NCBI GenBank assembly: GCA_028284075.1
Contig: JANQSL010000171.1
Span: 1 to 64,000, forward strand
DNA from: Candidatus Sumerlaeia bacterium
GTDB taxonomy: Bacteria > Sumerlaeota > Sumerlaeia > SLMS01 > JAHLLQ01
Direction of reading: 5' to 3'
Length of the DNA: 64,000 nt
In this document: positions 12,449-49,679 of the stretch, piece by piece
Numbering within the stretch: the stretch's first letter is position 1
Layout: each line of letters starts with the position of its first letter
Notes under the pieces: generated by a model
Databases searched by the model: none
Told to the model about the DNA's origin: nothing
What the model saw: only the letters and a program-made list of their open reading frames with translations
Position numbers and translations under genes: made by a program

Positions 12449-13306
12449 CTATCCCTTTATTCCGCTGGTGGCAATACCTTCAATGAAGGCGCGCTGTGCA
12501 AAGAAGAAAACGATGAGAATGGGGATGATGGAAATCATGGCTCCTGCCATCATCAGCGGCCAGTTGCTGCCGTATTGAGTCTGAAGGAAGCTTAGGCCGG
12601 CCGTAAGCGGCATTTTCTCGAGAGTGTCGATGTAGATGAGAGGGTTCAACAGATCATTCCAGCTGTTCATGAACGTAAAGACGCCGAGAGTGGTCAGAGC
12701 GGGGACGGCCAGTGGAACATAGATCCGGAAGAGGATTCCGCCAGGAGTGCAACCATCCACCAGGCCGGCTTCATAGAGATCTCGCGGAACACCGAGAAAA
12801 AACTGCCGCAGGAGAAACACTCCGAATGCGTTGCCAAAGAAGGCGGGAACCCAGAGCGGATAATGAGTGTCTTTCCATCCCAGATGCTGAAAGAGGATAA
12901 AGACAGGAATGATAGTGACCTGATACGGGACCATCAGGGTCGTGACCATGCCTCCAAAAACAACACGACGCCCGGGAAAGGACAGCCTCGCGAGTGCGAA
13001 AGCGGCCATCGAGCACGACAGCAGGACTCCGACAACGTTCAGAATGACCAGCTTGAAGCTGTTGAATAAAAAGGGTCCCATGGGAACCGAGTCGAAGATT
13101 CGCGAATAGTTTTCGATACGAAATGTCTTCGGCAGCAATGTGGGTGGATACTGGAAGGCGCCATCCAGTGTCTTGAGCGAAGTCGATGCCATCCACAGGA
13201 AGGGGAATACCATTGCAACAGCGACAATACTCAACATGATGTAACTGGCAAAGCCGTCGGCTATTCCATTTTGCTCGCGCATCGTGGTCTTCAATAGTGG
13301 ACCCAT
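12449..13306 (-). CDS. Carbohydrate ABC transporter permease (CUT1, MalG-like)
   Basis: EAGLVDGCTPGGILFRIYVPLAVPALTTLGVFTFMNSWNDLLNPLIY (EAA loop) and multiple TM segments. Confidence 0.88.
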   Translation of the reverse strand: MGPLLKTTMREQNGIADGFASYIMLSIVAVAMVFPFLWMASTSLKTLDGAFQYPPTLLPKTFRIENYSRIFDSVPMGPFLFNSFKLVILNVVGVLLSCSMAAFALARLSFPGRRVVFGGMVTTLMVPYQVTIIPVFILFQHLGWKDTHYPLWVPAFFGNAFGVFLLRQFFLGVPRDLYEAGLVDGCTPGGILFRIYVPLAVPALTTLGVFTFMNSWNDLLNPLIYIDTLEKMPLTAGLSFLQTQYGSNWPLMMAGAMISIIPILIVFFFAQRAFIEGIATSGIKG

Positions 13307-14211
13307 TTCTTCTGGAGCCAGAACTGTGAGAGGGTCACTGTGAAAATGATCAGAAACAGAGCCGTGCCGATTACGCTGGCGTACCCCATTTCCAGAAACT
13401 GAAAGGCATGCTTGTACAGGTAGTAAACCAGGGTCATCGTTGAGTTGGCCGGCCGTCCGTCCCGGGCCATGATATAGACCTGGTCAAAAACCTGGAAGCC
13501 TCCAATCAGGCTCAGAATAATCACGAAGAACACGACGGGAGAAATGGCTGGCAGTGTGACATGAAGAAATCGTCGGATAACTCCGGCTCCATCAAGTTCG
13601 GCAGCCTCATGAAGGTGGCGTGGCACCGCCTGAAGAGCGGCGAGAAATATCACCATGTTGTACCCGAGACCCTTCCAGACGCTCATTGCCATAATCGCAG
13701 GCATGGCGGTCCGTGGGCTGTTGAGCCATGACACGGGGTCGGGTGGCTGACGGCCGAACAGCTTCATGCAAGTCTCGATCAGGTAGTTCAATACACCATA
13801 ATTGGGGTCGTAGAACCACGCCCAAACGAGGGCAACGGCGACGGTCGACGTGACAACCGGGGTGAAGAAGATCACTCGGAATATGCCCATTCCACGAAGG
13901 GGTCTGTTGACCAGCATTGCCAGGAGCAGTGACAGCACGACCCCCGTGGGAACCGTTCCAACCACGAAATACGCAGTGTTCGCCAGGGATTTCCAGAACA
14001 GTTCGTCCGCCAGAAGGCGGGTCCAGTTGTCCAATGCGACAAATCTCGGCGTACTGATGTTGTCCCAGCGGTAGAATCCAATCATCCAGGAAAACAGAAT
14101 GGGCCCGGCGGCGAAAAAAACAAGACCAACAAGATAAGGACTCGAAAGCAGAAGGCCCCAGCGTCGTTCCATCCGGCCGAGGGATGAGCCCTTAAGTGCT
14201 GGCGTGTTCAT
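13291..14211 (-). CDS. Carbohydrate ABC transporter permease (CUT1, MalF-like)
   Basis: LHEAAELDGAGVIRRFLHVTLPAISPVVFFV EAA loop; TM segments. Confidence 0.88.
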   Translation of the reverse strand: MNTPALKGSSLGRMERRWGLLLSSPYLVGLVFFAAGPILFSWMIGFYRWDNISTPRFVALDNWTRLLADELFWKSLANTAYFVVGTVPTGVVLSLLLAMLVNRPLRGMGIFRVIFFTPVVTSTVAVALVWAWFYDPNYGVLNYLIETCMKLFGRQPPDPVSWLNSPRTAMPAIMAMSVWKGLGYNMVIFLAALQAVPRHLHEAAELDGAGVIRRFLHVTLPAISPVVFFVIILSLIGGFQVFDQVYIMARDGRPANSTMTLVYYLYKHAFQFLEMGYASVIGTALFLIIFTVTLSQFWLQKKWVHY

Positions 14212-14213
14212 TT

Positions 14214-15536
14214 TCAGGGAACCTGAGCCACAGATCGGTTGCGCAGGACATTATCGACCCGGGCGGCGGCCTCTGTCATCGCTTCCTCAACGCCCTTGCT
14301 GCCAAGCCACAAAAGCTCCATTTCTCCGCGGATCGCATCCTCATATCGTGCAAACCCCTCTGTGAAGGGGAGCACTCGTCCGTGGGACTCAATCTGCCGC
14401 AGAAACGCTTCCTTGTTGGCAGGGTGCTGGTCCAGATAGGTTTCTGAGTATGCCACCTCCTTGAGCGCGGGAATGGAGGTTCCACTTTTTGCGAGTTGTT
14501 CCTGGTAGGTTTTTGAACTCAGGAATCGCACCAGACGCCATGCGGCCTCTTTGTTTTCCGATCCCGAGTAGATCGCGTTGCCGAGGCCGTTTACCGGGGC
14601 GGCGGAAATCTTCCCCTTCGGCAGGGGAGCAACGTCCCAGTCGAAGCCTTCAATTTCCGAGAACAAACGAACCATCCATGAACCTTCAGATGACATTCCG
14701 AGACGCCCCGTCAGGAACATATTGCTGCCGAAGGTCGATGCCTGTGCCGTGTCAGGAGAGACTTTTTCCTTCAGGACAAGGTCTGAGAAGAACCGCATCG
14801 CCTCGACCGCTTCCGGTTCCGCCAGAAGCGAGCGGTTATGATCGGTATTCAGAACTCTGGCGCCGTTCTGCCAGATCCAGGAGATGTAGTGCACCTCCAT
14901 GGACTCGAACGCCGCCAGATAGCCGTAGCTCTCCATCCTGCCGTCACCATTCTCATCAACGGTAAGTGCTCTCGCTTTCTCGATGAAATCCTCCCAGGTC
15001 CAGTCATCATCCGGATAAGGGACGCCGTGCTTGTCGAAGAGTGTTTTGTTATAATAAATACCGATCGTGTTGCAGTCTCGGGGCAATGCCCAAAGGCCGC
15101 TGGAGAAATCGAAGACCTTCACTGTCGGCTCAAAATATTCACCGAGATCGAAGGCGGCAGAGTCTTTCTCCATCCACGGCTGGAGATTTTCGATTTGGTC
15201 TCTGACGACATAGTCGTGGATGTACGTGCCGCCGATCAGAAACACATCCGGGGCGCTTCCCGCCGCCATCTGAGCTTGGAGCTTGTTCCAGTACTCCGCC
15301 CATGAGTTGAACTCGACCCGGACCTTGATGTCCGGGTTTGCCTGTTCAAACTCCCGTATGAGTTCGCGCTCCGCCTTCAATTCCTCGGGCAACCCCCACC
15401 TTGCGAAGCGGATGGTGATTTGTTCGGAGTCACCGGAACCACCACAACCGCTCAGGAGAGCCGCCAGGTGAAGAAACATAAGCACGCTCAGTGTTCCGGC
15501 CCGGAAGCGTGCAGATGGGGCGTGGCATGAAAACAT
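14214..15536 (-). CDS. Extracellular sugar solute-binding lipoprotein (CUT1)
   Basis: Lipobox-like LLSGCGG; ITIRFARWGLPEELKAERELIREFEQANPDIKVRVEFNSWAEYWNKLQAQMAAGSAPDVFLIGG. Confidence 0.88.
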   Translation of the reverse strand: MFSCHAPSARFRAGTLSVLMFLHLAALLSGCGGSGDSEQITIRFARWGLPEELKAERELIREFEQANPDIKVRVEFNSWAEYWNKLQAQMAAGSAPDVFLIGGTYIHDYVVRDQIENLQPWMEKDSAAFDLGEYFEPTVKVFDFSSGLWALPRDCNTIGIYYNKTLFDKHGVPYPDDDWTWEDFIEKARALTVDENGDGRMESYGYLAAFESMEVHYISWIWQNGARVLNTDHNRSLLAEPEAVEAMRFFSDLVLKEKVSPDTAQASTFGSNMFLTGRLGMSSEGSWMVRLFSEIEGFDWDVAPLPKGKISAAPVNGLGNAIYSGSENKEAAWRLVRFLSSKTYQEQLAKSGTSIPALKEVAYSETYLDQHPANKEAFLRQIESHGRVLPFTEGFARYEDAIRGEMELLWLGSKGVEEAMTEAAARVDNVLRNRSVAQVP

Positions 15537-35101: not shown

Positions 35102-38062
35102 CTAGCCGTTTCCTGCGACGATCAGGCGGACGCCTTTCGGTCCGACGACCCTGCCAGGAGGTTCTTTTTCAAGAAAAAGCCGCAGTGTCGGTGTCTCCTC
35201 TTCAGTTGTAAACGTGGCTGACGCATTGCCCCACAGTGTGCGAATTCCTGAGAAGCCACATCCAATCCGGTACCACTCCATGGGAATTCCGGCTCCAACG
35301 ACCAGTGAGTCGTCGAGTTCATAAACAAACATATCAGCAATCGCGTGAATGAGCCCCGATCCGATCCATGTGTGCGGCATGTCGCCGATATAGTTCGGTG
35401 ATCGATAGCCCGGATGGGTAACCTCTCCCATGTGGTTCCAGCCTGCAGGCCGTACGGCATCGTCCAGAAAGTACTCCAGCAAGGCCATCGCCCGCTCCGG
35501 CTGATCGAGCCGCAGATATGCGGCAACGTTTCGAAGTTCATAGGCGGTGTATGATGAGGGCTTGTCGATACGACGCTCTTCGCAGCTCCGCCAGTATCGC
35601 TCGTACGTTCCTTTAAGGAGTTTTGGTGGAAGTGTTTCCGATTCGTGTCCAATCATCAACGCGATCGATGTGGCACTCGGATCGGGATCGCCAAGATCCG
35701 CTGTTGCAGGAAGAAAAGTCAGGTCCTTTTCCTTAGCCACCATGTTCATGGAGCGAATCATTGCCTGGCGCAGCTCCGACGCTTCTCTCCGCAGTTCCAG
35801 GGCGCGTTCAGGAAGTCCGAGGGCCCTCGCAATTGCCGCTCCGTCTTCAAGGCCGATGATCCCCCACATGTTGTCCCAGTGGCTGTGTCGCGCGGGGAAG
35901 TATCCTTCGTGGCTGTTGGACTCAGGAAGTATGCCCTCAAATTCGGTGCCTGCGTATTCAGTCGTCAAACGCTCGCGCCTCAACCGCATCATATAATCCA
36001 GGGCCCGGTCAACTTTCGGCCACACTGCACCGGCAAGGGCCCAGTCTCCCGTCGCAGCTGCATAGTAACGAACCGCGTGGGCGAGTTGGCCGAATGAATC
36101 GTGTTCTTTCCAGTCGTGGGTGTAGTCGGGCATTTCCCCCGTCGTCGGCTTAAGAATGAACGGCACAAATCCATTATCGTGAACATTGTCGGAGAACCAT
36201 TCGAGATAGTCTCGTACCGGCGTGGTCAGACCGAACCGTACCATCGATGTGCTGCTAATGGAACCGTCACGAATCCAGGCAAGTTCGTAGTTGCGGCTGC
36301 CGGGCTGGATTGCCGGACCGTCCGCGTTCAAGAGGAGATAGGCAAGATTCGAGCGAATCAGATTCTCCCAACGCCTGTCTGGAACTTCGATTTCCCAGTT
36401 TTCCGTTTCTTTTCGCCAGAACACGGTCATGAATGCCTTGGCGTCTTCAAAGAATTCCGATGGATTATCGGGTAACAGGGAGGTGTCCTTCTCCATCGGG
36501 CACGAGAGATACACTGAAGCGGATTCATCGGCCGCCAGCCGGAACTCATAAAGGTAGCCTGCACTGAGTATTCCGTTTTCAAAATCCGGAGTGTCTGCTT
36601 CAGCGTCACGCTGCAGAAGACCAAATGTCGGTATCTCACTCTGCCCCTGCAGGACGGCCTGTTCCGGGGCGGGGCTCGGAAACAAAACATCTCGATCCTC
36701 CACTCGCAGAACACCGCTTTCGTCGAGGGAAGCTGAAGCGACATGAGAAGTTCCCCCGTATTGCCAGGGTGGTGAAATCTGCAATGACCGCGTAGCCAGC
36801 ATCAGGCTGATGCTCCGGGTTTTCGGACCGGAATTAAGGATTGTATAACGCACATGGGAGTTATTGAGCGCGTCCACAAGCAACGTTACTTCCAATTCAA
36901 TATTGTCGCTTGTCCAGGTCACGGAAGGAATGGGGGCCCAGTCCTCGACAAGATGTTGCTCAGTCCGGAAGTCGAATGCCGTTTTGAAAGTTCCGTCAAT
37001 TGTCAGGGCGGGCGTTACCGTAAGGGTTTTGGGAAGCAATTCGACGTTGCCATATTCATCGATCAGAGCCTCTTCAAACCTCTGAGGCAGTCCGGCAATT
37101 GTCCAGTAAACCTGTTCCTGTGAAAGCCAGCGCGGGAAGGCTCCATCCGGAGATTCTGCTGCCAGGCTTTCAAAGTGGCGCTGAGGATTCCAGGCAGCGT
37201 TGGCGTTGAGGAGGGTTAGTTCGGCAACCTCGGGAATACGAGTCGGATCCAGAAATCTCACAAGGATTTCCCCCACCTGCTGTGCGTCAAAAAAGATCTC
37301 ATCGGGGTTGGCGGTTCCGAATGCCTGCCCCACGGAAATCCACTCATCGTTTGGCGTGGCGCGAATCGAAAGACTCCAGGAGGAACGATCTCCGTCTCCC
37401 CACAGCAACGCAACTCCTCCGCTCTCGACTGGTTCCGGCAGTGAAACGACGATTTCCGTTCCACTTGTTTTATTCTCAGGGCGCCAGAACGTTTCAGAAT
37501 CGCCGTCCATCAGGTTTTCCGGAGCATGTCCGGGGGCGGAGGTCGTGGCCGAGAAATCGCGCCGATACTCCTCACCAAGCGGGACCGCTTCGTAGACGGA
37601 ATATCCCCATCCCGTACCGCGCCGGACTCCCTGTAGCTTGATGTAGCGTCCCGATTTTGGACCAAAATAGATTGTCTCGGTTCCTCCGCGGCCGTCGCGG
37701 CGAATCGCGGCAGTCTGCCAGTTTTCGCCGTCACCGCTGAGCAGGATATCATAATCGCGCCCGTAGGCGGTCTCCCAGTGGATGCGCAGGCCGACCAGCT
37801 CTTCTGTCTCTCCAAGGTCCAGAGTGAGCCATTGTCTGTCGTCAAATTCGCTGGACCATCGGGTGGACATGTTTCCATCGACTGCCATCATGGCTCCAAG
37901 GGCCTGCTCCTGGGGGTTACTGCTGGTGGCTGTAATTGTGGCAGTCAGCGCTGGTATCGGTATGAGAAGAGCACCTGATATCGTGCCGAAGATCTTTGAT
38001 ATCAGCCATCCAGCAGCAATTTGTGGAAGCCTTTTCATTTCTTGATGGGAAATCGGAAGCAT
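35102..38062 (-). CDS. Secreted glycoside hydrolase-like protein: N-terminal F5/8-type C (discoidin) domains plus (alpha/alpha)6-barrel-like domain
   Basis: NMSTRWSSEFDDRQWLTLDLGETEELVGLRIHWETAYGRDYDILLSGDGENWQ; RNYELAWIRDGSISSTSMVRFG...YFPARHSHWDNMWGIIGLEDGAAIARALG. Confidence 0.65.
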   Translation of the reverse strand: MLPISHQEMKRLPQIAAGWLISKIFGTISGALLIPIPALTATITATSSNPQEQALGAMMAVDGNMSTRWSSEFDDRQWLTLDLGETEELVGLRIHWETAYGRDYDILLSGDGENWQTAAIRRDGRGGTETIYFGPKSGRYIKLQGVRRGTGWGYSVYEAVPLGEEYRRDFSATTSAPGHAPENLMDGDSETFWRPENKTSGTEIVVSLPEPVESGGVALLWGDGDRSSWSLSIRATPNDEWISVGQAFGTANPDEIFFDAQQVGEILVRFLDPTRIPEVAELTLLNANAAWNPQRHFESLAAESPDGAFPRWLSQEQVYWTIAGLPQRFEEALIDEYGNVELLPKTLTVTPALTIDGTFKTAFDFRTEQHLVEDWAPIPSVTWTSDNIELEVTLLVDALNNSHVRYTILNSGPKTRSISLMLATRSLQISPPWQYGGTSHVASASLDESGVLRVEDRDVLFPSPAPEQAVLQGQSEIPTFGLLQRDAEADTPDFENGILSAGYLYEFRLAADESASVYLSCPMEKDTSLLPDNPSEFFEDAKAFMTVFWRKETENWEIEVPDRRWENLIRSNLAYLLLNADGPAIQPGSRNYELAWIRDGSISSTSMVRFGLTTPVRDYLEWFSDNVHDNGFVPFILKPTTGEMPDYTHDWKEHDSFGQLAHAVRYYAAATGDWALAGAVWPKVDRALDYMMRLRRERLTTEYAGTEFEGILPESNSHEGYFPARHSHWDNMWGIIGLEDGAAIARALGLPERALELRREASELRQAMIRSMNMVAKEKDLTFLPATADLGDPDPSATSIALMIGHESETLPPKLLKGTYERYWRSCEERRIDKPSSYTAYELRNVAAYLRLDQPERAMALLEYFLDDAVRPAGWNHMGEVTHPGYRSPNYIGDMPHTWIGSGLIHAIADMFVYELDDSLVVGAGIPMEWYRIGCGFSGIRTLWGNASATFTTEEETPTLRLFLEKEPPGRVVGPKGVRLIVAGNG

Positions 38063-38191
38063 GTCGGAAAACCTTTGGCTTCAAAAATAAGTCAAACAAC
38101 AGCAGTAATTCGTGTATTCAAAAGAGGATGGGTCAACAATAAGATTGACGAGATGGGGTGAAATGGTGAACCGCTACAACCAGCCTTGTTA

Positions 38192-38205
38192 TGAAAGCGC
38201 TTACA
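38192..38205. promoter_or_regulatory. LacI-family/cre-like operator
   Basis: TGAAAGCGCTTACA fits TGWAANCGNTNWCA exactly. Lies in the divergent intergenic region between 35102..38062(-) and 38257(+). Confidence 0.6.
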
Positions 38206-38256
38206 CGGCAGGCTGAAGAGCATCTCAACTTTTCCCAAAGACCGGAGGTAATTCAG

Positions 38257-39459
38257 ATGAAGAGTTCTGTAACGGCGGGTTTCGGTTTCCTGACCCTTGC
38301 GGCCATGGCGATCACGTTGCCGCTGGAAGCCCAAACGACGATCGACAATTTTGAAAGCCATGACTGGGATTATTGGTTTGGAACCGTTGCAAATCCTCCT
38401 GCCAATGCATTCCAGCCGGCAGAGGGGTCTGCGGTGGAATACAGCACCGCCGTCTCTCAAAGTGGCCAGTCTTTGCTCATCAAGGAGACTTGGAGACGGG
38501 CCGGCGCCTGCGTGGATTGTGGAATCTCCGCGGTGAGAGCGGTCCGCAGTAACACTCTTGTTCAGATTCCCGTTGGATCTGTTACCGGTGATGTTACTTT
38601 CGACGTTTACCTTGATGGGGCCAATTTCGGCGCCAATGATGATGGAGGAGGGATGCCGGTCTCCGTTCCGGGCATGAAGGTGGAGCTCGGCACGACAGCT
38701 GGAAATGCGTCCTCCGCCGAAGAGGCAATGACATACCAGGGTTGGAAAACCTACACTGTGGCTCAGGGTGATATTTCCGGTGACGTCAATGAGCTTCGGT
38801 TCATTTTTGTCATGGACTTTCCATTCGGATCGGCTCAGTCGGATGGCGACTGGTCAATCTACGTGGATGACATGCGAATCAATGGTGTGTTGGTTGACGG
38901 CTTTGAACGCACACCGGTCTACGGTTCTGAAGTCGAAGCGTCGGGGGTCGGTTTTGAGCAGCCACCGGACCCCGCACTGGCTGACCCCTTCTCAGCGACC
39001 GACAACGGAATCGGCAGTTCCATGGTTCCCACCCTCGCCGGAGGCCCGACGGCCAACGAGGGAAGTTTTGCCTATGTGTTGAACTGGAACACGGAAACCG
39101 ATGGTACAGTGGGTATCACCGCGAATCATTCAAATGACGTTCGGGATGTGTCAGCGGCAGGGAGCATCAGTGTTGATGTCTATGTTCCCTCACCGCAGAG
39201 TATTCCGACTTTCAGTCTGAATCTGGCCGACTCATCCGGTGGGACGGAGTCGTTTGCCGGCACGGCCGTCTCGTCAACCGATGCATGGGAAACCGTCATC
39301 TTTAATCTTGCAGGGCTCAGTACTGTCGACCCGGGCGACATTCAGCTCATCAATGTCACTGCCACCAGTGCCGGAACCGACGGAACTCTCTACTTTGACA
39401 ACATGGTTGCCGCGGGAAGCGTCGTCTCAGAAGTGCGTGACTGGCAGGCCTACGAATAA
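38257..39459 (+). CDS. Secreted CBM-like protein
   Basis: Leader MKSSVTAGFGFLTLAAMAITLPLEAQ; GGAGG Shine-Dalgarno upstream of ATG 38257; jelly-roll-like repeats. Confidence 0.55.
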   Translation: MKSSVTAGFGFLTLAAMAITLPLEAQTTIDNFESHDWDYWFGTVANPPANAFQPAEGSAVEYSTAVSQSGQSLLIKETWRRAGACVDCGISAVRAVRSNTLVQIPVGSVTGDVTFDVYLDGANFGANDDGGGMPVSVPGMKVELGTTAGNASSAEEAMTYQGWKTYTVAQGDISGDVNELRFIFVMDFPFGSAQSDGDWSIYVDDMRINGVLVDGFERTPVYGSEVEASGVGFEQPPDPALADPFSATDNGIGSSMVPTLAGGPTANEGSFAYVLNWNTETDGTVGITANHSNDVRDVSAAGSISVDVYVPSPQSIPTFSLNLADSSGGTESFAGTAVSSTDAWETVIFNLAGLSTVDPGDIQLINVTATSAGTDGTLYFDNMVAAGSVVSEVRDWQAYE

Positions 39460-39526: not shown

Positions 39527-41767
39527 ATGATTTCCAAAGTTCGTTTATTCCTGTTTCTCACCGTTGCCTTTGTTCCCGGACTTCTTTCGGCCGAGAGTGA
39601 AGAAATCACTGTCTGGGCAATGGGGGAGGAGGGTAACCGGATTTCGGTTCTTGCTCAAGCGTTCGAAAGTGAAAACCCTGGTGTCAGAGTTGTTACTCAG
39701 GCCATTCCCTGGAACGGTGCGCATGACAGACTGCTTACTGCAGTGGCAGGAGGACTGACACCGGATGTCGTCCAACTCGGAACAACCTGGATTCCGGAGT
39801 TCGCTGAAATCGATGCATTACTGCCACTCGATTCGTTGATCGGGGAAGGCGAAATCGGTGCAGAGCGTTTCTATCCCGGATCATGGAAAACGGCCCTTTA
39901 TGATGACAGGGTCGTTTCCATTCCCTGGTACGTTGACACACGTGTTTACTTCTATCGGTCTGACCTTCTGGAAGATGCCGGGATCGGAGAGTTTCCCCGC
40001 ACATGGCAAGGCCTGGAAGAGCTCGGGGAGGCTCTGACACGTGATGTGGATGGAGACGGAACCTTCGACAACCATGCCTACGATCTGCTTGCCCGCGACT
40101 ATGGTCTCTCAGTGGCACTGTTCCGACAGGCGGGCGCTTCGATTTTCGGGCCGGATGGAAAAAGCTCTGTTGCATCCGTCGAAGGCATTGAGAGTTTGAG
40201 TTTTTTCCGTTCACTGGTGAGTCGCGGTTATGCACCGGGACCGTCCGGAAGGCAGATTGATCCGATTCAGGACCTGCGGACGGGGTATGTGGCGAGCTGG
40301 ATATCAGGTCCGTGGATGGTTGAACTTCTGCGTACCCAGGCGCCTGATCTCAATGGCAAATGGATGGTTGCCGGGATGCCGCGGGGGAGGCATGAGTCAT
40401 CGTTTCTTGGCGGTTGCAATTTGGCGGTCTTCCGAAACTCAACCCGTCCGAATCTGGCACAAAGGTTTGTCGTCTTCTGTTCCCGACCGGACATTCAGCA
40501 ATTGTGGTTCTCCGCGACAGGTAATTTGCCTGCGGTGCGCGATGCGTGGAACGCTGAAGAACTTGAGAATGATCCGATTTGGCGGGTTTTCAAGAATCAA
40601 CTCGAATCAGCGGAACCTCCGCCGCCTCTTGTCTCATGGGCCGCAATGGAAAGCGCGATCGAGAATTCCGTTGAAGATATGGTGATCAATGAACGCAACC
40701 CGGCGGAAACGGCGCGTGAACTGGCTTCAAGACTGGATTCACTTTATCCGAAAGGCCGTCGCGGCAAGGGTAACCTCTCTGGCCATGGCACGTTGGTGTT
40801 GGGAGGGTTCTTCGTCTTTTTTGCGGTGATTGTCGCTTTGTGGGTTCTTGCTCCGGCTCTGCTTGACAGAACATCGAGCTGGAGACGAGTCGGAGTTTCA
40901 GCGATGTTTCTCGCACCGGCAGCACTACACTTGATTGTGTTCATGCTGGTGCCATTGATGATCTCCCTCGCACTCAGCTTCACGAACTATGACATTTACT
41001 CCATTGGCGATTGGAGAACGACATCCTTTGTTGGTTTCGAAAACTACCAAAGGCTTGTCGGAGATGCTCGTTTCTGGACGTCGTTTCTCAATACCGTCTA
41101 TTTCCTTGCTGTGGCGGGGCCATTAACCATTATTGCGGCACTCACGGCAGCGATTATTCTCAATCGAAGGTTTTCATCACGGGTTCGGACATTCTTTCGT
41201 TCGTCTCTTTTTCTTCCGGTGGTTACTCCTCTTGTCGCGGTGGCGGTTGTATGGAGGTGGCTTCTTGCACCGCAGAGCGGCCTGATCAATCTCGGACTGG
41301 AATGGATCGGCATCGAAGGGCGTGCGTGGCTGACGGATCCGGTTTGGGCAATGCCATCGTTGATTTTGATGGCGGTGTGGAAAAACGCCGGCTACAGTAT
41401 GGTGATTTTCCTCGCCGGACTCCAGACGATTCCCCGCACCTTTTATGAGGCGGCTGAGGTCGATGGCGCCGGACCGATGCGTCGCTTCGTCAGCATCACT
41501 ATTCCGCTTTTACGCCCCACTCTCCTCTTCGTCGTTGTCGTGACAACGATAGGTTACATGCAGCTCTTCGCCGAACCGTATGTCATGACGGCGGGTGGTG
41601 GACCGAGCGACCGGACACTATCGATCGTTCTGTATCTTTATCAGGAAGGCTTCAAGTTTTTCAATCTCGGCTATGCTTCGGCCGTTGCTTACACACTCTG
41701 TCTTGTCGTGGCGGTCGTGAGCTTCCTCCAGATGATTCTCGCGGGTTCCCGCGAAGGGAGAATATAA
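39527..41767 (+). CDS. Fused CUT1 solute-binding protein plus MalF-like permease
   Basis: Single frame: N-terminal SBP (EEITVWAMGEEGNRISVLAQAFESENPGVRVVTQAIPWNGAHDRLLTAVAGGLTPDVVQLGT) then 7+ TM permease with EAA loop (FYEAAEVDGAGPMRRFVSITIPLLRPTLLFV). An alternative start is at 39494. Confidence 0.88.
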   Translation: MISKVRLFLFLTVAFVPGLLSAESEEITVWAMGEEGNRISVLAQAFESENPGVRVVTQAIPWNGAHDRLLTAVAGGLTPDVVQLGTTWIPEFAEIDALLPLDSLIGEGEIGAERFYPGSWKTALYDDRVVSIPWYVDTRVYFYRSDLLEDAGIGEFPRTWQGLEELGEALTRDVDGDGTFDNHAYDLLARDYGLSVALFRQAGASIFGPDGKSSVASVEGIESLSFFRSLVSRGYAPGPSGRQIDPIQDLRTGYVASWISGPWMVELLRTQAPDLNGKWMVAGMPRGRHESSFLGGCNLAVFRNSTRPNLAQRFVVFCSRPDIQQLWFSATGNLPAVRDAWNAEELENDPIWRVFKNQLESAEPPPPLVSWAAMESAIENSVEDMVINERNPAETARELASRLDSLYPKGRRGKGNLSGHGTLVLGGFFVFFAVIVALWVLAPALLDRTSSWRRVGVSAMFLAPAALHLIVFMLVPLMISLALSFTNYDIYSIGDWRTTSFVGFENYQRLVGDARFWTSFLNTVYFLAVAGPLTIIAALTAAIILNRRFSSRVRTFFRSSLFLPVVTPLVAVAVVWRWLLAPQSGLINLGLEWIGIEGRAWLTDPVWAMPSLILMAVWKNAGYSMVIFLAGLQTIPRTFYEAAEVDGAGPMRRFVSITIPLLRPTLLFVVVVTTIGYMQLFAEPYVMTAGGGPSDRTLSIVLYLYQEGFKFFNLGYASAVAYTLCLVVAVVSFLQMILAGSREGRI

Positions 41768-41772
41768 ACGCG

Positions 41773-42678
41773 ATGGCTGGTGCAGGAATTCGTTTTTCTC
41801 CAACGGCTGAGATCGACGGCAGGAAGGGCACTTTACAACAAGTGCCGAGTGCCCGGGGCAGAGGGTTTGTCCGCTCGATTCCTGGCCTGCTGTTTCTTCT
41901 TCTCGCGGCCGGGGCGGCACTGATCCCTTTTTTGTGGATGATCAGCACCGCTTTCAAGCGGCCGGAAGTCATCTATCAGATTCCTCCTGTTTGGATTCCA
42001 GTCGAGCCGACTCTGCGTCATTTTCAAAACCTTTTCGGACAACTGTCCTTTGCAAGGAACCTCTTCAATTCCACCGTGGTCACCTTCGGAATCACGGCAC
42101 TCAGTCTTCTGTTGAACTCAATGGCAGGGTACGCATTCGCCAAACACCGGTTTCCCGGAATGGAGAGATTGTTCGGAGTCTTTCTGATCACACTGATGGT
42201 TCCCGCACAAGTTACGGCGATACCCGTGTTTCTGCTGCTCAAGAAGCTGGGTTTGCTCAATACTCTGGCGGGACTGATTATTCCTGCAGCCTCCTCGGTT
42301 TTTGGAATTTTTCTCATGCGACAGTTCATGACTTCGATCCCCGATGCACTGATCGAGTCGGGCCGGGTCGACGGTTGCAGGGAATGGGGCATCTTCTGGT
42401 CAATTGTGCTGCCGCAATGCCGCCCCGCGCTTGCGGCACTCGGCATCTTCACATTTCTTGCCGCTTGGTCTGACTTTTTCTTTCCTTTGATCGTTCTGTT
42501 TGATCAGCGAAAGTACACCCTGCCCGTCGCTCTCGCGACACTCAATGGTCAGCACACAACAGACTGGGGAATGTTAATGGCCGGTTCACTGGTAGTCATT
42601 ACTCCCATCGTTCTGCTGTTCATCGCACTTCAACGCAAATTCGTGGAGGGCATCGCTCTCACGGGATTGAAAGGATAA
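41773..42678 (+). CDS. Carbohydrate ABC transporter permease (CUT1, MalG-like)
   Basis: IESGRVDGCREWGIFWSIVLPQCRPALAALGIFTFLAAWSDFFFPLIV. Confidence 0.88.
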   Translation: MAGAGIRFSPTAEIDGRKGTLQQVPSARGRGFVRSIPGLLFLLLAAGAALIPFLWMISTAFKRPEVIYQIPPVWIPVEPTLRHFQNLFGQLSFARNLFNSTVVTFGITALSLLLNSMAGYAFAKHRFPGMERLFGVFLITLMVPAQVTAIPVFLLLKKLGLLNTLAGLIIPAASSVFGIFLMRQFMTSIPDALIESGRVDGCREWGIFWSIVLPQCRPALAALGIFTFLAAWSDFFFPLIVLFDQRKYTLPVALATLNGQHTTDWGMLMAGSLVVITPIVLLFIALQRKFVEGIALTGLKG

Positions 42679-42681
42679 GCA

Positions 42682-45171
42682 ATGCACCGTCATTCTTCAA
42701 ACGGAGCAAACTCACGACTTTTTGAAACAGAGTACGGTTATTTTGATGTTCGGAATGATTCTTATGTCATCAAGCGCCCTGACACTCCGCGTCCGTGGGT
42801 GAATGTCGTGGCGAACGAACGCTATGGCACGGTAATCAGTCAGGCTGGAGGAGGATTTTCCTGGATCGATCATTCAACGCTTTCGGTTCTGACACGCTGG
42901 CGTCAGGACCTGGTGCGGGACGACTGGGGAAAGTGGCTGTACATACGCGACGATGAAAGCGGAAATCTTTGGAGTGCGGCTCCTCAGCCCGTACTTTCCC
43001 CATATGATTCCTATGAATGCCGTCACGGGCTTGGTTATAGTGTGTTGTCAGCACGGATTCATGGCATACAGAGCGAATGGACAATTGTGGTTCCTCCCGA
43101 TGCAACATTCGAACTCTGGTATCTCAGGCTCACGAATCTCGATAACAAAGTACGCAACCTGACTGCATGCTCACACTTTATGTGGAATCTCGGTGCCGCC
43201 CCCGACAATCACAGGGAGTTCCATCGGCTCTTTCTTCACAACGACTTCGATAAACAAGCTGGCATTATCCGCGCAAACAAGGTTTTGTGGGAAGTTCCCA
43301 CAGAGAAGCACGGTCATTGGAACACACACTATCCCTATGCGGCTTTCCATGCAGTCTGGAATGAGGCGGGGGAAGCACCCGCCACACTCTTCGCATGTGG
43401 CGATCACGAGTCATTCACTGGTCGCCATGGGACATGGAAGGCGCCGAGATGGCTGAGTGAGCAAGGTGGGCGGGAAACCACCGGATTTGGGCGACACGGC
43501 GACGCAATTGCGGCGCTGGCATCCGGCGTTACTCTCGAGCCGGGAGAAACACGGGAGTTGGCATTCGCCCTTGGGGCTGTTCTCGAGCACGAGCCGGACG
43601 TTCAGACGGCGCTCGCTCCCTATCGAACACAGGACAGTCGTCACAGGGTTCTTGAAAGTGTCAGGGTTTTCTGGCATGATCGCCGGGAGGGGGTGCAGGT
43701 TGAAACGCCTGACGATGCATTCAATCTGCTCGTGAACACCTGGACTCCTTATCAGGCAATGGCGGGAAGGGTTTTTGGTCGCACCGGCTATTGGCAACAG
43801 TCCGGTGCCTACGGTTTCCGCGATCAACTGCAGGACAGCCATGTCTTTCTGCCCTGTGATCCGGAGAGAATGAAATCAACGCTGCTTCTTCATGCCCATC
43901 ATCAGTTTGCAAACGGAACTGTCTATCATTGGTGGCACCCTCTTTCCGAAGTGGGTCTGCAAACGGAAATGACCGACGATCTTCTGTGGCTTGCTTTCAT
44001 GACGACCGCCTATCTGAAGGAGACCGGTGACTGGGCCGTTTTGGCGGAAGAAGCTCCGTTTGTTGATTGTCAGAAACCGGCTCCGCTCTTCGAACACTGC
44101 CGACTTGCAATCACAAAGGTTCTTGAACGCTTTAGTGACCGAGGTCTTCCCCTGATTGGGGCCGGTGACTGGAACGATGGCATGAGCGCCTGCGGTCTCT
44201 CGTGGAGAGGTGAATCAGTGTGGCTGGGCCACTTTCTCCACGCTGTGCTTGCAGACTGGGTTCGAATTGCCCGTTACGAAAACAAGGAGTCGTTGGCGGA
44301 GGAGTGGGAGAAGCGGCGGGCGGCTTTACAAGACGCTCTGAATACCGTTGGATGGGATGGTGCCTGGTACTGGCGTGCTTCGCTGGATGATGGTTCGCTT
44401 CTGGGCAGCTCCCGGCGCCGTGAGGGTCGTATTTTTCTCAATGCGCAGACGTGGTCGGTTCTTGCGGGCGTTGCCGATGATGATCGTTCAGCTCTTGTCA
44501 TGGATGCGGTGGAGGAGTATCTCCTGCATGATTTTGGCCCCTCTCTCTTTTCTCCCGCATACCGCAGCCCGGATCCCCGGATTGGTTATCTGACCCGGTA
44601 CACTCCCGGCGTGCGGGAAAACGGTGGCGTTTACAGCCATGCCGCAATGTGGGCAATCCAGGCGGCTTGCCGTGTGAAACGTCCGCAGCTTGCATGGAAA
44701 ATGTTTTCACGCCTCGCTCCACCGTTTCGTGGAATGAATCCAGAACATTACTGCGTCGAACCGTACGTCATGCCGGGAAATGTCGATGGGCCGGATTCAC
44801 CACATTATGGACGTGGCGGATGGTCATGGTACACAGGATCCGCTGCATGGATGCGCCGTATAAGTCTTGAAGCCATTCTTGGCGTTCAGCCCGGCTGGGA
44901 TGGTTTGAAAATTGAGCCGTGTTTGCCGCCCCACTGGCCGGAAGCAAGGCTTCACCGGCGGTACCGGGGAGATCTCCTCGATATCACGATTCGGAATCCC
45001 GATCTCTGCGGGTGCGGAGCGGTGCAGATCATCGTTGATGGCGAGGAGCTTGAGCCGGGTCGAAGCATAACTTCTTCCGGCAGTGGACAAACAAGACGGA
45101 TTGAAGTCTGCGTGCGTGCCACCGAAGCAACGGCGGTCGGAGCGGGCAGCAACGAAGGGAAAATGTTGTGA
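42682..45171 (+). CDS. GH94 glycoside phosphorylase (cellobiose/beta-glucan disaccharide phosphorylase-like)
   Basis: ETEYGYFDVRNDSYVIKRPDTPRPWVNVVANERYGTVISQAGGGFSW, YECRHGLGY, GDWNDGMS, GGVYSHAAMWAI. Confidence 0.88.
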   Translation: MHRHSSNGANSRLFETEYGYFDVRNDSYVIKRPDTPRPWVNVVANERYGTVISQAGGGFSWIDHSTLSVLTRWRQDLVRDDWGKWLYIRDDESGNLWSAAPQPVLSPYDSYECRHGLGYSVLSARIHGIQSEWTIVVPPDATFELWYLRLTNLDNKVRNLTACSHFMWNLGAAPDNHREFHRLFLHNDFDKQAGIIRANKVLWEVPTEKHGHWNTHYPYAAFHAVWNEAGEAPATLFACGDHESFTGRHGTWKAPRWLSEQGGRETTGFGRHGDAIAALASGVTLEPGETRELAFALGAVLEHEPDVQTALAPYRTQDSRHRVLESVRVFWHDRREGVQVETPDDAFNLLVNTWTPYQAMAGRVFGRTGYWQQSGAYGFRDQLQDSHVFLPCDPERMKSTLLLHAHHQFANGTVYHWWHPLSEVGLQTEMTDDLLWLAFMTTAYLKETGDWAVLAEEAPFVDCQKPAPLFEHCRLAITKVLERFSDRGLPLIGAGDWNDGMSACGLSWRGESVWLGHFLHAVLADWVRIARYENKESLAEEWEKRRAALQDALNTVGWDGAWYWRASLDDGSLLGSSRRREGRIFLNAQTWSVLAGVADDDRSALVMDAVEEYLLHDFGPSLFSPAYRSPDPRIGYLTRYTPGVRENGGVYSHAAMWAIQAACRVKRPQLAWKMFSRLAPPFRGMNPEHYCVEPYVMPGNVDGPDSPHYGRGGWSWYTGSAAWMRRISLEAILGVQPGWDGLKIEPCLPPHWPEARLHRRYRGDLLDITIRNPDLCGCGAVQIIVDGEELEPGRSITSSGSGQTRRIEVCVRATEATAVGAGSNEGKML

Positions 45172-46289
45172 GTAAAAAGAAAACCACGGAAACAAACGGT
45201 CAGCCACGAGCCAAAAGCGGAGCATCAATTTTCGATGTGGCGGCCCGAGCCGGTGTCTCAATAGCAACCGTTTCTCGTGTCATCAATGGACGAAACCGCG
45301 TTGCGCCAGAGACGATACGAAAGGTCGAGGCTGCGATGCATGCACTCCAGTTTCGACCTAACCGGCAGGCTCGCGCCCTGACGTTGCGCAAGACAGACAC
45401 AATCGGTCTGGTTCTTCCGGATCTTTACGGGGAGTTCTACGGTGAACTGATGCGTGGTGTCGATCAGGCGGCGCGCGAGGCGGGAGTGCACGTTCTGATC
45501 ACAAGGGCTGTCAGTCCCGAGGAAGAACGTGCCACAGTGGAGGAACTCCTGCAGGGAGGCGCTGTCGATGGATTGATTTTTCTGGTGTCGCAATTCGAGG
45601 ACAACGCACTTTCGGATCTGGCACGTTTTCAGGATTCGCTTCTCATTCTGGACCGCGATGTGGGGAACATCGAACTGGATAACGTGTTGGTTGATAATCG
45701 CGATGCCGGTCGTGAGGCAACTCTCCATCTGATTCGAGATGCCGGAGCAGAGAGTCTTGCTTTCATTGGAGGGCCGGAAGGCAATGTGGACACCGACAAT
45801 CGGCTCGCGGGGTTTCGGGATGCCTGCCATGAATTGGGAATCGATTCCTCTCCCGAACATATTCACTACAGTGATTATTCGTATGAGATGGGTCTCGCCA
45901 TCGGTGAGTCCTATTCTTCTCTGATTGAAGACGATGGCGGACGCTGGGGGTTCATCGCCGCGAATGACAATCTCGCCCGTGGCGTTATGGAAGCACTTGT
46001 TACCAAAGGCGCGGCCATTCCGCACGATGCCGCAATCATCGGATTCGATGATACGGAACTCGCTCGTGTCGTGCGTCCCCGGCTGACCTCAATGCGCGTG
46101 CCTCTTCAGGAGATCGGACGGACATGCGTTCGATTGCTTGTCGATCGCCTCAGAGGTCTCCGTACCGAACCCGCAAAGATGGTCTTCAAGGCGAGGCTCG
46201 CGCAGCGTGCATCGACCACCATTGACAGTGACCCTCTACAAAACACTCAGGAGAATGAAAATGCATCGTCCTCACAGGAACAGAACTGA
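45168..46289 (+). CDS. LacI-family transcriptional regulator
   Basis: SIFDVAARAGVSIATVSRVINGRNRVAPETIRKVEAAMHALQFRPNRQARALTLRKTDTIGLVLPD. Confidence 0.95.
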   Translation: MSKKKTTETNGQPRAKSGASIFDVAARAGVSIATVSRVINGRNRVAPETIRKVEAAMHALQFRPNRQARALTLRKTDTIGLVLPDLYGEFYGELMRGVDQAAREAGVHVLITRAVSPEEERATVEELLQGGAVDGLIFLVSQFEDNALSDLARFQDSLLILDRDVGNIELDNVLVDNRDAGREATLHLIRDAGAESLAFIGGPEGNVDTDNRLAGFRDACHELGIDSSPEHIHYSDYSYEMGLAIGESYSSLIEDDGGRWGFIAANDNLARGVMEALVTKGAAIPHDAAIIGFDDTELARVVRPRLTSMRVPLQEIGRTCVRLLVDRLRGLRTEPAKMVFKARLAQRASTTIDSDPLQNTQENENASSSQEQN

Positions 46290-46917
46290 AGAACGCGCTT
46301 TTACACTCATCGAATTGTTGATCGTTGTTGCAATCATAGCAATTCTTGCGGCGATAGCCGTTCCGAATTTCCTCGAGGCGCAGACACGCAGTAAAGTCAG
46401 CCGCGTCAAGGCGGACATGCGCTCTATTGCAACAGCGGTTGAAGCCTACTCCATCGACAATAACAGCTATCCTCTTTCACAGGAGCTTCTGTCGACCTAT
46501 CCGAACAGCCCATTTAATACTGCCTTTTTCGGATTTGGATTCATGGCGTATGCCGGCCGCCTTTCAACACCGATTTCCTATATCACGCAAGTTCCTCGCG
46601 ACATCTTCAACGAGGGAAACGCTCCCAATCGTCCGGACGGTTTTTCCTTCTTTGAGTATTGGTCCGAGGAAGACAATCTCATATTCGGGATCAACGATAT
46701 TAATGGCTACCGCCGGGAGTTCCTTCCGGACTCGACTCGTTATCTCCTCTGGTCCTGGGGACCCGATCGAGTCGCATTCGACCCCACTTTACCGGTAGGG
46801 CTTCTACAGGACCAGGTGACAATCTACAATTACTACGATCCAACCAATGGCACCGTCAGTTATGGTAACATCCTTCGCCCTGGCCCCGGCGGTGGACTCA
46901 AGCAGGGGTCAACCTGA
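46261..46917 (+). CDS. Type IV pseudopilin / GspG-like protein (pseudopilin 3)
   Basis: AFTLIELLIVVAIIAILAAIAVPNFLEAQTRSKVSRVKADMRS; C-terminal YYDPTNGTVSYGNILRPGPGGG. Start moved from 46138 to 46261 (AGGAG upstream); overlaps the lacI 3' end by 29 bp. Confidence 0.82.
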   Translation: MHRPHRNRTEERAFTLIELLIVVAIIAILAAIAVPNFLEAQTRSKVSRVKADMRSIATAVEAYSIDNNSYPLSQELLSTYPNSPFNTAFFGFGFMAYAGRLSTPISYITQVPRDIFNEGNAPNRPDGFSFFEYWSEEDNLIFGINDINGYRREFLPDSTRYLLWSWGPDRVAFDPTLPVGLLQDQVTIYNYYDPTNGTVSYGNILRPGPGGGLKQGST

Positions 46918-48308
46918 TGAGACTTCTGCTTTGTGGACTGATTGTCTCTTCGGCAGCAACAGGCTGGAGCCAGGAACTTCAAACGTCTGTCACGAGAGAT
47001 CATCCTGTTTCCCATCAGGAAATCTCTCCCCAGGACGATGAGCTTCTTGAGGAGATCTCGTATGCCAGCTTTCGGTTTTTCGTGGATGAGGCAAATCCCT
47101 CCACAGCCCTGGTGCCCGATAATGTGCAAAATCCCAACATCAGCAGCATTGCGGCTCAGGGTTATGCATTTTCGGCCTGGGTTATTGGTGCTGAACGCGG
47201 ATGGATCGCCCACGGTGAGGCTGAAGCGCTGTCGCTGAAGGCTCTCGGCACACTTGAGAGTACCGATGCCACGCGCTATGGGATGTTCGCCCATTTCCTT
47301 GATACGCGAACCGGTCAGATTTCCGAGGAGGGATACGAGAGTGGAGCGTCGACAATCGACAGCGCACTCCTTGCTGCCGGAATGCTGACGGCCGGCGAGT
47401 ACTTCGGTGGTGAAGTCAAAGCGCGGGCGGACCAGTTGTTTGCTGATATGGACTGGGCGGCGTTCCGCGATCCCGACAAGAACAACCAGGTGAGGATGCT
47501 TTGGAATCCGGCGGATCCTCACGACTTTTCCGCAGGCGGAGAGTTCGCACAGCCAACGTGGGACTGGTATACTGATGAAACGCTTCTGATTGTGCTGCTG
47601 GGAATATCAGCCCCTGATCCTGGCAAACGGCTCGATCCCGGAGAAGCCATGACCAACTGGAATCGGCCTGTTGGTTCGTATGGGCAGCACAGTTACATTT
47701 ACTCCTGGCCGGGTACTCTTTTCACGTACACCTTTGCGCAGTGCTATTTTGACTTCCGCATTCTCGGTGAAGACGTTCTCGGAGTAAACTGGTGGGAAAA
47801 CACGTTGTCCGCCGTCAGGGCAAATCGCGACTGGTGCAGGGACAACGCAGGCAGCTATACAACCTACGGACCGAACAGGTGGGGGGTTACCGCCTGCAGT
47901 GGTCCGCAGTTTACTTACGTGGTTCCAGGTCATCAGCCCCGCGGACCGCAGGGCGATGATCCTGCGGGGGGAACCCTCGCGCCCTATGGTGCCGGTATGG
48001 CGGTGCTTTGGGAACCCGCGGATGCGATCGCGGCACTTCGACACATGAAATCCTTCGTTGTTGGAGGGGCTGATGTCTGGGTATCGGTCGATAGCGGCGG
48101 CTATGGTTTCAGAGACGCCTTCAATATCGATGAGAACTGGGCCTCTCCCGATATACTCGGTATCGCTCAGGGGCCTATGCTGCTTTGTATTGAAAACCTT
48201 CGGAGTGAGCTCCTTTTCAGGACGCTTATCCGGAACCAGCACATTCGCCACGGATTGAAATCCGCCGGCTTTGATGTTCCCTGTCTCGACAGCTGGCGTA
48301 TTGAGTAA
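46917..48308 (+). CDS. Glycoamylase-fold protein (PF10091-type; GH144-related possible)
   Basis: ISYASFRFFVDEANPSTALVPDNVQNPNISSIAAQGYAFSAWVIGAERGWI; TWDWYTDETLLIVLLGI; AFNIDENWASPDILGIAQGPMLLCIEN. Confidence 0.8.
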   Translation: MRLLLCGLIVSSAATGWSQELQTSVTRDHPVSHQEISPQDDELLEEISYASFRFFVDEANPSTALVPDNVQNPNISSIAAQGYAFSAWVIGAERGWIAHGEAEALSLKALGTLESTDATRYGMFAHFLDTRTGQISEEGYESGASTIDSALLAAGMLTAGEYFGGEVKARADQLFADMDWAAFRDPDKNNQVRMLWNPADPHDFSAGGEFAQPTWDWYTDETLLIVLLGISAPDPGKRLDPGEAMTNWNRPVGSYGQHSYIYSWPGTLFTYTFAQCYFDFRILGEDVLGVNWWENTLSAVRANRDWCRDNAGSYTTYGPNRWGVTACSGPQFTYVVPGHQPRGPQGDDPAGGTLAPYGAGMAVLWEPADAIAALRHMKSFVVGGADVWVSVDSGGYGFRDAFNIDENWASPDILGIAQGPMLLCIENLRSELLFRTLIRNQHIRHGLKSAGFDVPCLDSWRIE

Positions 48309-48329: not shown

Positions 48330-49679
48330 ATGCTCAAATATCGCTTTCCGGACGGCTTTACATGGGGAGTTTCTTCTTCCAGCTATCAAATCGAAGGAGC
48401 GGCGTCCCAGGATGGGCGTGGGCCTTCCATATGGGATTCGTTTTGTCGCGAGCCGAATCGGATTGCACGAGACGAGAACGGAAGTGTCGCCTGTGATCAC
48501 TACAATCGCATGGAAAGCGACATCGAGCTGATTGCGAAAACGATCAATGCGAATGCCTATCGATTCTCCATTGCCTGGCCGCGCGTCCTCCCCGAAGGGG
48601 AGGGACACGTCAACCCCGCCGGTATCGGCTTCTATGATCGTCTTGTGGACAAATTGCTGGAACAGGGAATCAAACCCGTTTGCACCTGCTATCACTGGGA
48701 TCTGCCGCTGGCGCTTCAGAAAAAACACGGTGGATGGCAGTCGAGGCGAGTGGCGGAGCTTTTTGCAGAGTACTGTGAAATACTGGGAACACACCTTGGC
48801 GACAGAGTTGACACATGGTGTACTCTTAATGAACCGGAAGTTGTACTGACGGCTGGATATCGAACCGGCGTTCATGCACCCGGACTCATGCTTGATGAAA
48901 AGGGGGTTCGGCAGGTTACACATCATCTGCTGCTTGCCCACGGGCTTGGCACACAGGCGTTGCGAAAATCCATTACCAGACAGGGTGCACGAATCGGACT
49001 CGTTCACAACAGCACCAGTTATTCGCCACTGACCGAGTCTGCAGAGGACATCTCGGCAACCCGCGAGGTTTTTCATTGCGAAAACAGCTGGTTGCTAAGT
49101 CCGGTGTCTCATGGTGTTTACCCTGCGGAGCTATGGCGAGAGCTCGATAAGAATGTTCCCGAGACTGAAGACGGAGATCTCGCGGTCATTGCCACCTCGA
49201 CCGACTACCTGGGTATTAATACATACTTCTCCACGGCCATGGTGTCGGGAGAAAGAGGCGAGATCCCGTTCGAGAAGCATTATCCCCGAACCCTTATGAA
49301 CTGGCCTGTGACACCGGATACGCTCTATTGGACAACACGGTTTGTTCACGAGCTCTACGGAGGGAAGAAACCGTTGATGATTACGGAGAGTGGTTCGGCC
49401 TGGCCCGACAAGCCGCAGAGCGACAATGGAACCTCCGTCGTCAACGATCTCGCGAGAATCGTATACCTGCGAGAGCACCTTAAGGGAATCCACCGCGCAA
49501 TCGAGGAAGGCCTTCCTTTGGAAGGATACTTTGTCTGGTCGATTATGGATAATTTCGAATGGAGTGCCGGGTACGAGAAGCGGTTTGGTTTGATTTACAT
49601 CGACTACGAAAATCAGAAACGAATCCCTAAAGCGAGTGCGGAATGGTACCGCAACGTTATCAAATGGAATGGATTCTGA
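48330..49679 (+). CDS. GH1 beta-glucosidase
   Basis: FPDGFTWGVSSSSYQIEGAASQDGRGPSIWDSF, WCTLNEPEV, ITESGSAWPDK (NEP/TENG-type catalytic motifs). Confidence 0.93.
   Translation: MLKYRFPDGFTWGVSSSSYQIEGAASQDGRGPSIWDSFCREPNRIARDENGSVACDHYNRMESDIELIAKTINANAYRFSIAWPRVLPEGEGHVNPAGIGFYDRLVDKLLEQGIKPVCTCYHWDLPLALQKKHGGWQSRRVAELFAEYCEILGTHLGDRVDTWCTLNEPEVVLTAGYRTGVHAPGLMLDEKGVRQVTHHLLLAHGLGTQALRKSITRQGARIGLVHNSTSYSPLTESAEDISATREVFHCENSWLLSPVSHGVYPAELWRELDKNVPETEDGDLAVIATSTDYLGINTYFSTAMVSGERGEIPFEKHYPRTLMNWPVTPDTLYWTTRFVHELYGGKKPLMITESGSAWPDKPQSDNGTSVVNDLARIVYLREHLKGIHRAIEEGLPLEGYFVWSIMDNFEWSAGYEKRFGLIYIDYENQKRIPKASAEWYRNVIKWNGF

Follow-up and report, generated by a model that had tools for sequence, protein, structure and literature searches.

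The genome assembly GCA_028284075.1 of a Candidatus Sumerlaeia bacterium contains a gene in which a single solute-binding domain is joined in-frame to a MalF-type permease subunit, that is, a fusion of the MalE-MalF type. The gene lies on contig JANQSL010000171.1, in a stretch of 64,000 nucleotides (positions 1 to 64,000) that was analysed as a whole and is called the window here. A gene for a MalG-type permease starts 5 bases past the stop codon of the fusion. The fused solute-binding protein (SBP), its link to the membrane and the two permeases are arranged as follows.

39527..41767, forward strand: SBP-permease fusion (MalE-MalF type), 746 amino acids (aa) in one stop-free frame, with SBP_bac_1 and BPD_transp_1 domains
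39527..39595, forward strand: signal sequence, residues 1-23 (MISKVRLFLFLTVAFVPGLLSAE), without a lipobox Cys, hydropathy peak at residues 2-20, cleavage site predicted from sequence
39596..40744, forward strand: solute-binding domain, about residues 24-406, from Pfam; best PDB matches 5ysb (sequence) and 5ysf (fold)
40745..40783, forward strand: flexible, predicted periplasmic linker, residues 407-419, without predicted secondary structure; predicted local distance difference test score (pLDDT) <50 at residues 412-425
40784..40861, forward strand: extra transmembrane helix (TM0), residues 420-445, hydropathy 2.83, followed by an Arg-containing, predicted cytoplasmic loop
40877..41746, forward strand: MalF-type permease domain with transmembrane helices TM1-TM6, residues 451-740, EAA loop EAAEVDGAGPMRRFVSITIP
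41773..42678, forward strand: MalG-type permease, 301 aa, BPD_transp_1 (2.3e-16), EAA loop ESGRVDGCREWGIFWSIVLP, 53% identity to the MalG of a related locus, L021

The frame is open on the forward strand from 39494 or 39527 to 41767, and its 746 residues are counted from the ATG at 39527. This start is preferred over 39494 because AAAGGAATCG lies just 5' of it and the signal sequence begins directly after it. On the fused chain, Pfam places SBP_bac_1 at residues 41-324 (1.9e-33) and BPD_transp_1 at residues 539-735 (1.4e-18), and these domain matches rule out a chance open reading frame. NCBIfam matches a MalE/GanS-like and then a UgpA/MalF-like stretch, each under its curated cut-off, and therefore the fused chain has no named equivalog. 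The initial annotation of this DNA had described a single reading frame holding a signal sequence, an SBP, a transmembrane segment and a complete permease with an EAA loop, followed in the operon by MalG; Pfam, hydropathy and the structural model all agree. Its assignment to the CUT1 class of sugar importers also stands, since the MalF- and MalG-type subunits each have BPD_transp_1 and an EAA loop and the SBP_bac_1 domain has the fold of CUT1 binding proteins. The second CUT1 system of the window consists, as had been noted, of separate genes, all on the reverse strand (SBP at 14214-15536, permeases at 13291-14211 and 12449-13306). A scan for promoters and terminators gave matches no better than those in shuffled sequence.

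The AlphaFold2 model of the fused chain, built on a 29-row alignment, has a mean pLDDT of 88 and a predicted template modelling score (pTM) of 0.64. Permease helices were modelled at residues 451-483, 514-546, 551-579, 605-634, 650-678 and 714-740. Modelling of the linker, which the initial annotation had proposed, gave an unstructured segment directly ahead of the TM0 helix. The linker region and the first half of TM0 are modelled with low confidence, and at this pTM the model does not settle how the two halves sit relative to each other. Why should there be an extra helix at all? With the binding domain outside and TM1 of a CUT1 permease having to start inside, the topology demands a helix such as TM0. 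Basic residues mark the C-terminus and the loops that follow TM0 and TM2, and by hydropathy and charge the EAA loop EAAEVDGAGPMRRFVSITIP would lie on the same side as these regions. TM0 is thus predicted to return the chain to the cytoplasm, so that permease TM1 starts on the correct side of the membrane. At the junction, nearly all fused homologues have a hydrophobic segment, weaker in a few. In the single-frame fusions that were read, its best 19-residue average ranges from 1.2 to 3.3 and basic residues generally come after it.

Is the fusion genuine? The genome is a draft of 275 contigs, and some other lineages, such as Bacillaceae (loci L023 and L024), encode the homologous binding protein and permease separately. 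A stop codon or frameshift between separate malE and malF genes could have been lost through an assembly or sequencing error. However, the in-frame fusion is kept, at 44-50% identity, in the orthologues of five other, independently assembled genomes. One is of the same family (L103), two are of the same order (L104, L105) and two are Clostridia metagenome-assembled genomes by name (L021, L022). In all five, a short linker and an additional hydrophobic helix join the binding domain to the permease, and such a helix would not be expected at the end of an ordinary malE gene. Fusion in independent genomes is explained neither by chance nor by a stop lost in one assembly. The missed stop that the initial annotation had raised as a concern is thereby excluded, and we regard the chance of an error here as negligible.

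A genuine reading frame could still yield two working proteins, either because the chain is cut or because an internal start produces a separate permease. The disordered linker could be cleaved, and GGAG stands eight bases 5' of an in-frame ATG at residue 460. Against this, Met 460 is not conserved among the orthologues, for which reason the internal start was rejected, and starting there would remove the N-terminal part of TM1. In addition, nearly all homologues have a TM0-like segment at the junction, which is understandable only if the chain is tethered. Production of two proteins is accordingly quite improbable, and we take the working form to be the single tethered chain.

What does the importer carry? 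The genes downstream of malG include the following.

42682..45171, forward strand: glycoside hydrolase family 94 (GH94) phosphorylase, probably a 1,2-beta-oligoglucan phosphorylase; Glyco_hydro_94 (2.5e-112)
45168..46289, forward strand: LacI-family regulator; Pfam LacI and Peripla_BP_3
46917..48308, forward strand: GH144-like endo-beta-1,2-glucanase; PF10091 (3.8e-44), matches 5gzh, endo-beta-1,2-glucanase (8.1e-31)
48330..49679, forward strand: GH1 beta-glucosidase; Glyco_hydro_1 (1.2e-146), matches beta-glucosidases in PDB

The closest solved relative of the binding domain by sequence is Lin1841 of Listeria innocua (5ysb, 3.2e-78), and the best fold match of the modelled domain is another Lin1841 entry (5ysf, 4.2e-30). 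Lin1841 is a beta-1,2-glucooligosaccharide-binding protein, with structures holding sophorotriose to sophoropentaose. One cluster thus contains a GH94 enzyme, a Lin1841-type binding protein and a beta-1,2-glucanase-like gene, as expected of a beta-1,2-glucan locus. In L105 the GH94, LacI, GH144-like and GH1 genes all adjoin the fusion, and in L103 the first three do. GH94 and GH144-like genes are also near the fusions of L021 and L177, the former with a protein assigned to GH35 by eye. Among fused relatives at greater distance, L180 and L182 have both GH94 and GH144-like genes and L181 has GH94. Published beta-1,2-glucan clusters with overlapping gene sets are described for Listeria, for Streptomyces griseus, where a GH1 enzyme is present, and for Ignavibacterium, where GH35 and GH144 occur (PMC12369401, PMC8861115). 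From the neighbourhood and the relatives of the binding domain, the substrate is most likely beta-1,2-glucooligosaccharides (sophorooligosaccharides). Some points weigh against this: cellobiose phosphorylases are among the GH94 matches, with a lower score; beta-glycoside-binding proteins, for example 7c69, were also matched, again less well; and GH1 and GH94 enzymes act on many beta-glucosides. The same architecture might then serve another beta-glucoside, cellobiose, laminaribiose or gentiobiose, which we consider unlikely.

The operon encodes no MalK-type ATPase. A single MalK-type gene was found in the genome (L184:796-1905, G000:C10), encoding a UgpC/MalK-like protein of 369 aa with OB_MalK and TOBE_2 domains. 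The genome also has 12 SBP_bac_1 matches and 33 BPD_transp_1 matches, the latter count including other importer families. With one MalK-type gene and many importer matches, a shared ATPase is the simplest reading, and this suggests that one ATPase serves some ten CUT1 systems, the fused importer perhaps among them. Weighing against this, the draft genome is about 90% complete and a second MalK gene could be missing. A search of this draft for ribosomal RNA gave no match.

Taken together, the locus probably encodes a CUT1 ATP-binding cassette (ABC) importer for linear beta-1,2-glucooligosaccharides, with its single binding domain tethered to the MalF-type subunit. The signal sequence would export the binding domain, which the linker of about 13 residues and TM0 would keep beside its docking site. 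TM0 would bring the chain back to the cytoplasm ahead of permease TM1, MalG would complete the channel, and power would come from the presumably shared MalK-type ATPase, whose gene lies elsewhere; there would be one tethered binding domain per complex. The GH144-like enzyme may produce the oligosaccharides from beta-1,2-glucan. Once imported, these would undergo phosphorolysis by GH94 and hydrolysis by GH1.

The fused SBP-MalF architecture is already known. A MalE-MalF fusion in a maltose CUT1 transporter was published by Licht et al. (2019, Res Microbiol 170:1-12), as cited in PMC9045158 and PMC7756565, and the latter describes MalE fused to MalF as transport-competent. That system is likewise a CUT1 importer in which the MalF subunit bears one fused solute-binding domain; its substrate is maltose/maltodextrin rather than the beta-1,2-glucooligosaccharides predicted here. 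It reportedly comes from Bdellovibrio bacteriovorus. The Lin1839-Lin1841 cluster of L. innocua shares with our locus a homologous binding protein, a GH94 phosphorylase, a beta-glucosidase, an ABC importer and the presumed substrate, but there the binding protein is separate and the beta-glucosidase is GH3 instead of GH1. OpuA and GlnPQ also have covalently tethered binding domains, but these are different importer families whose permeases are homodimeric, hence two or more binding domains per complex. In our operon a separate MalG gene follows and there is only one binding domain, so the heterodimeric MalFG should carry one per complex. GlnPQ also has its binding domain at the N-terminus, and the order of SBP before permease, to which the initial annotation drew attention, is therefore not special. 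OpuA has an anchoring helix and a short linker, as do TM0 and the linker here; its linker is of 11 residues and its binding domain reaches an apparent concentration of ~4 mM (PMC11065425). The Ignavibacterium album cluster IALB_1177-1187, as described in PMC8861115, has a GH144, a synthase-type GH94, a binding-protein homologue and a putative ABC importer as ours does, and differs in holding a GH35 glycosyltransferase.

How common are such fusions? At least 22 of 40 genomes of the same phylum have one or more stop-free frames carrying both domains, as do at least 25 of 346 other sampled bacterial genomes, in about 20 family-level groups. Both counts are lower bounds, the scan of 346 genomes having scored at most two candidates per genome at a strict E-value. 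A second, distant fusion is present in the window's own genome (L101). The initial annotation had presented the fusion as atypical in CUT1; its architecture and class are upheld, but rarity as a novelty is not, given the published fusion and these counts of genome frames (not of annotated proteins). The substrate context had gone unrecognised. In a plasmid search, binding protein and permease were mostly separate genes where annotated, among the matches listed.

A permease tree with 58 fused and 50 separate rows needs 10 state changes; this number is rough because the tree was made quickly, has long branches and samples the separate rows unevenly. At least 4 changes are forced by well-supported branches, and therefore fusion has been gained or lost several times. 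The window's fusion groups with fused rows from other groups. It is conceivable, though we hold it only tentatively, that tethered CUT1 importers, in the order binding domain, TM0 and permease, form a large and mostly unrecognised class of several origins, concentrated in certain lineages and including split binding domains and MalF-MalG fusions.

Fusions of other shapes were also seen. At L102:6156-8066 (reverse strand; G000:C191), outside the window, a 636-aa reading frame has two BPD_transp_1 domains, a MalF-MalG fusion with a separate binding protein adjoining; it is conserved within the genus, at 83% identity, and also in two further genomes from the family. At L109:4924-7872 (reverse strand) and L110:2606-5428 (forward strand), the binding domain of fusions of 940-1084 aa is matched in two separated pieces, as though interrupted by an insert of some 100 aa or more. 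The L109 fusion is followed by a MalG of 588 aa that is extended at its N-terminus by about 360 aa.

As far as we have searched, what is new is the prediction that a fused importer takes beta-1,2-glucan fragments, the recurrence of TM0 and how widely the architecture occurs. No published survey of CUT1 SBP-permease fusions was found, which is weak evidence since subscription literature lay mostly outside the search. Nothing further was found on CUT1 fusions in phyla like Sumerlaeota, and the Sumerlaeota literature examined by term search does not mention fused transporters. In the textbook sugar importer, the binding protein diffuses freely and is present in excess. Tethering would fix one binding domain per channel, trading scavenging capacity for local concentration, and if the tethered class is real, free sugar-binding proteins would matter less in some lineages. 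Beta-1,2-glucan importers of one kind, split in Listeria and Bacillaceae and fused in this genome, offer a natural pair for the effect of tethering. Beyond this, the locus chiefly extends a published architecture to a further substrate and further lineages.

Three further genes at the locus may be mentioned. Within the sugar operon, 46138-46917 (forward strand) encodes a pilin- or pseudopilin-like protein with a prepilin N-terminal domain; homologues are near other fusions (L103, L105, L108, L115, L178), which may only mirror an abundant family. Directly 5' of the fusion, 38191-39459 (forward strand) encodes a 422-aa protein without a Pfam or NCBIfam match, a homologue of which adjoins the fusion in L103. 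Divergent from the operon, 35102-38062 (reverse strand) encodes a 986-aa protein that has F5/8 type C domains and, over one stretch, weakly resembles an oligosaccharide amylase, and it too has a homologue (44%) near the fusion in L103.
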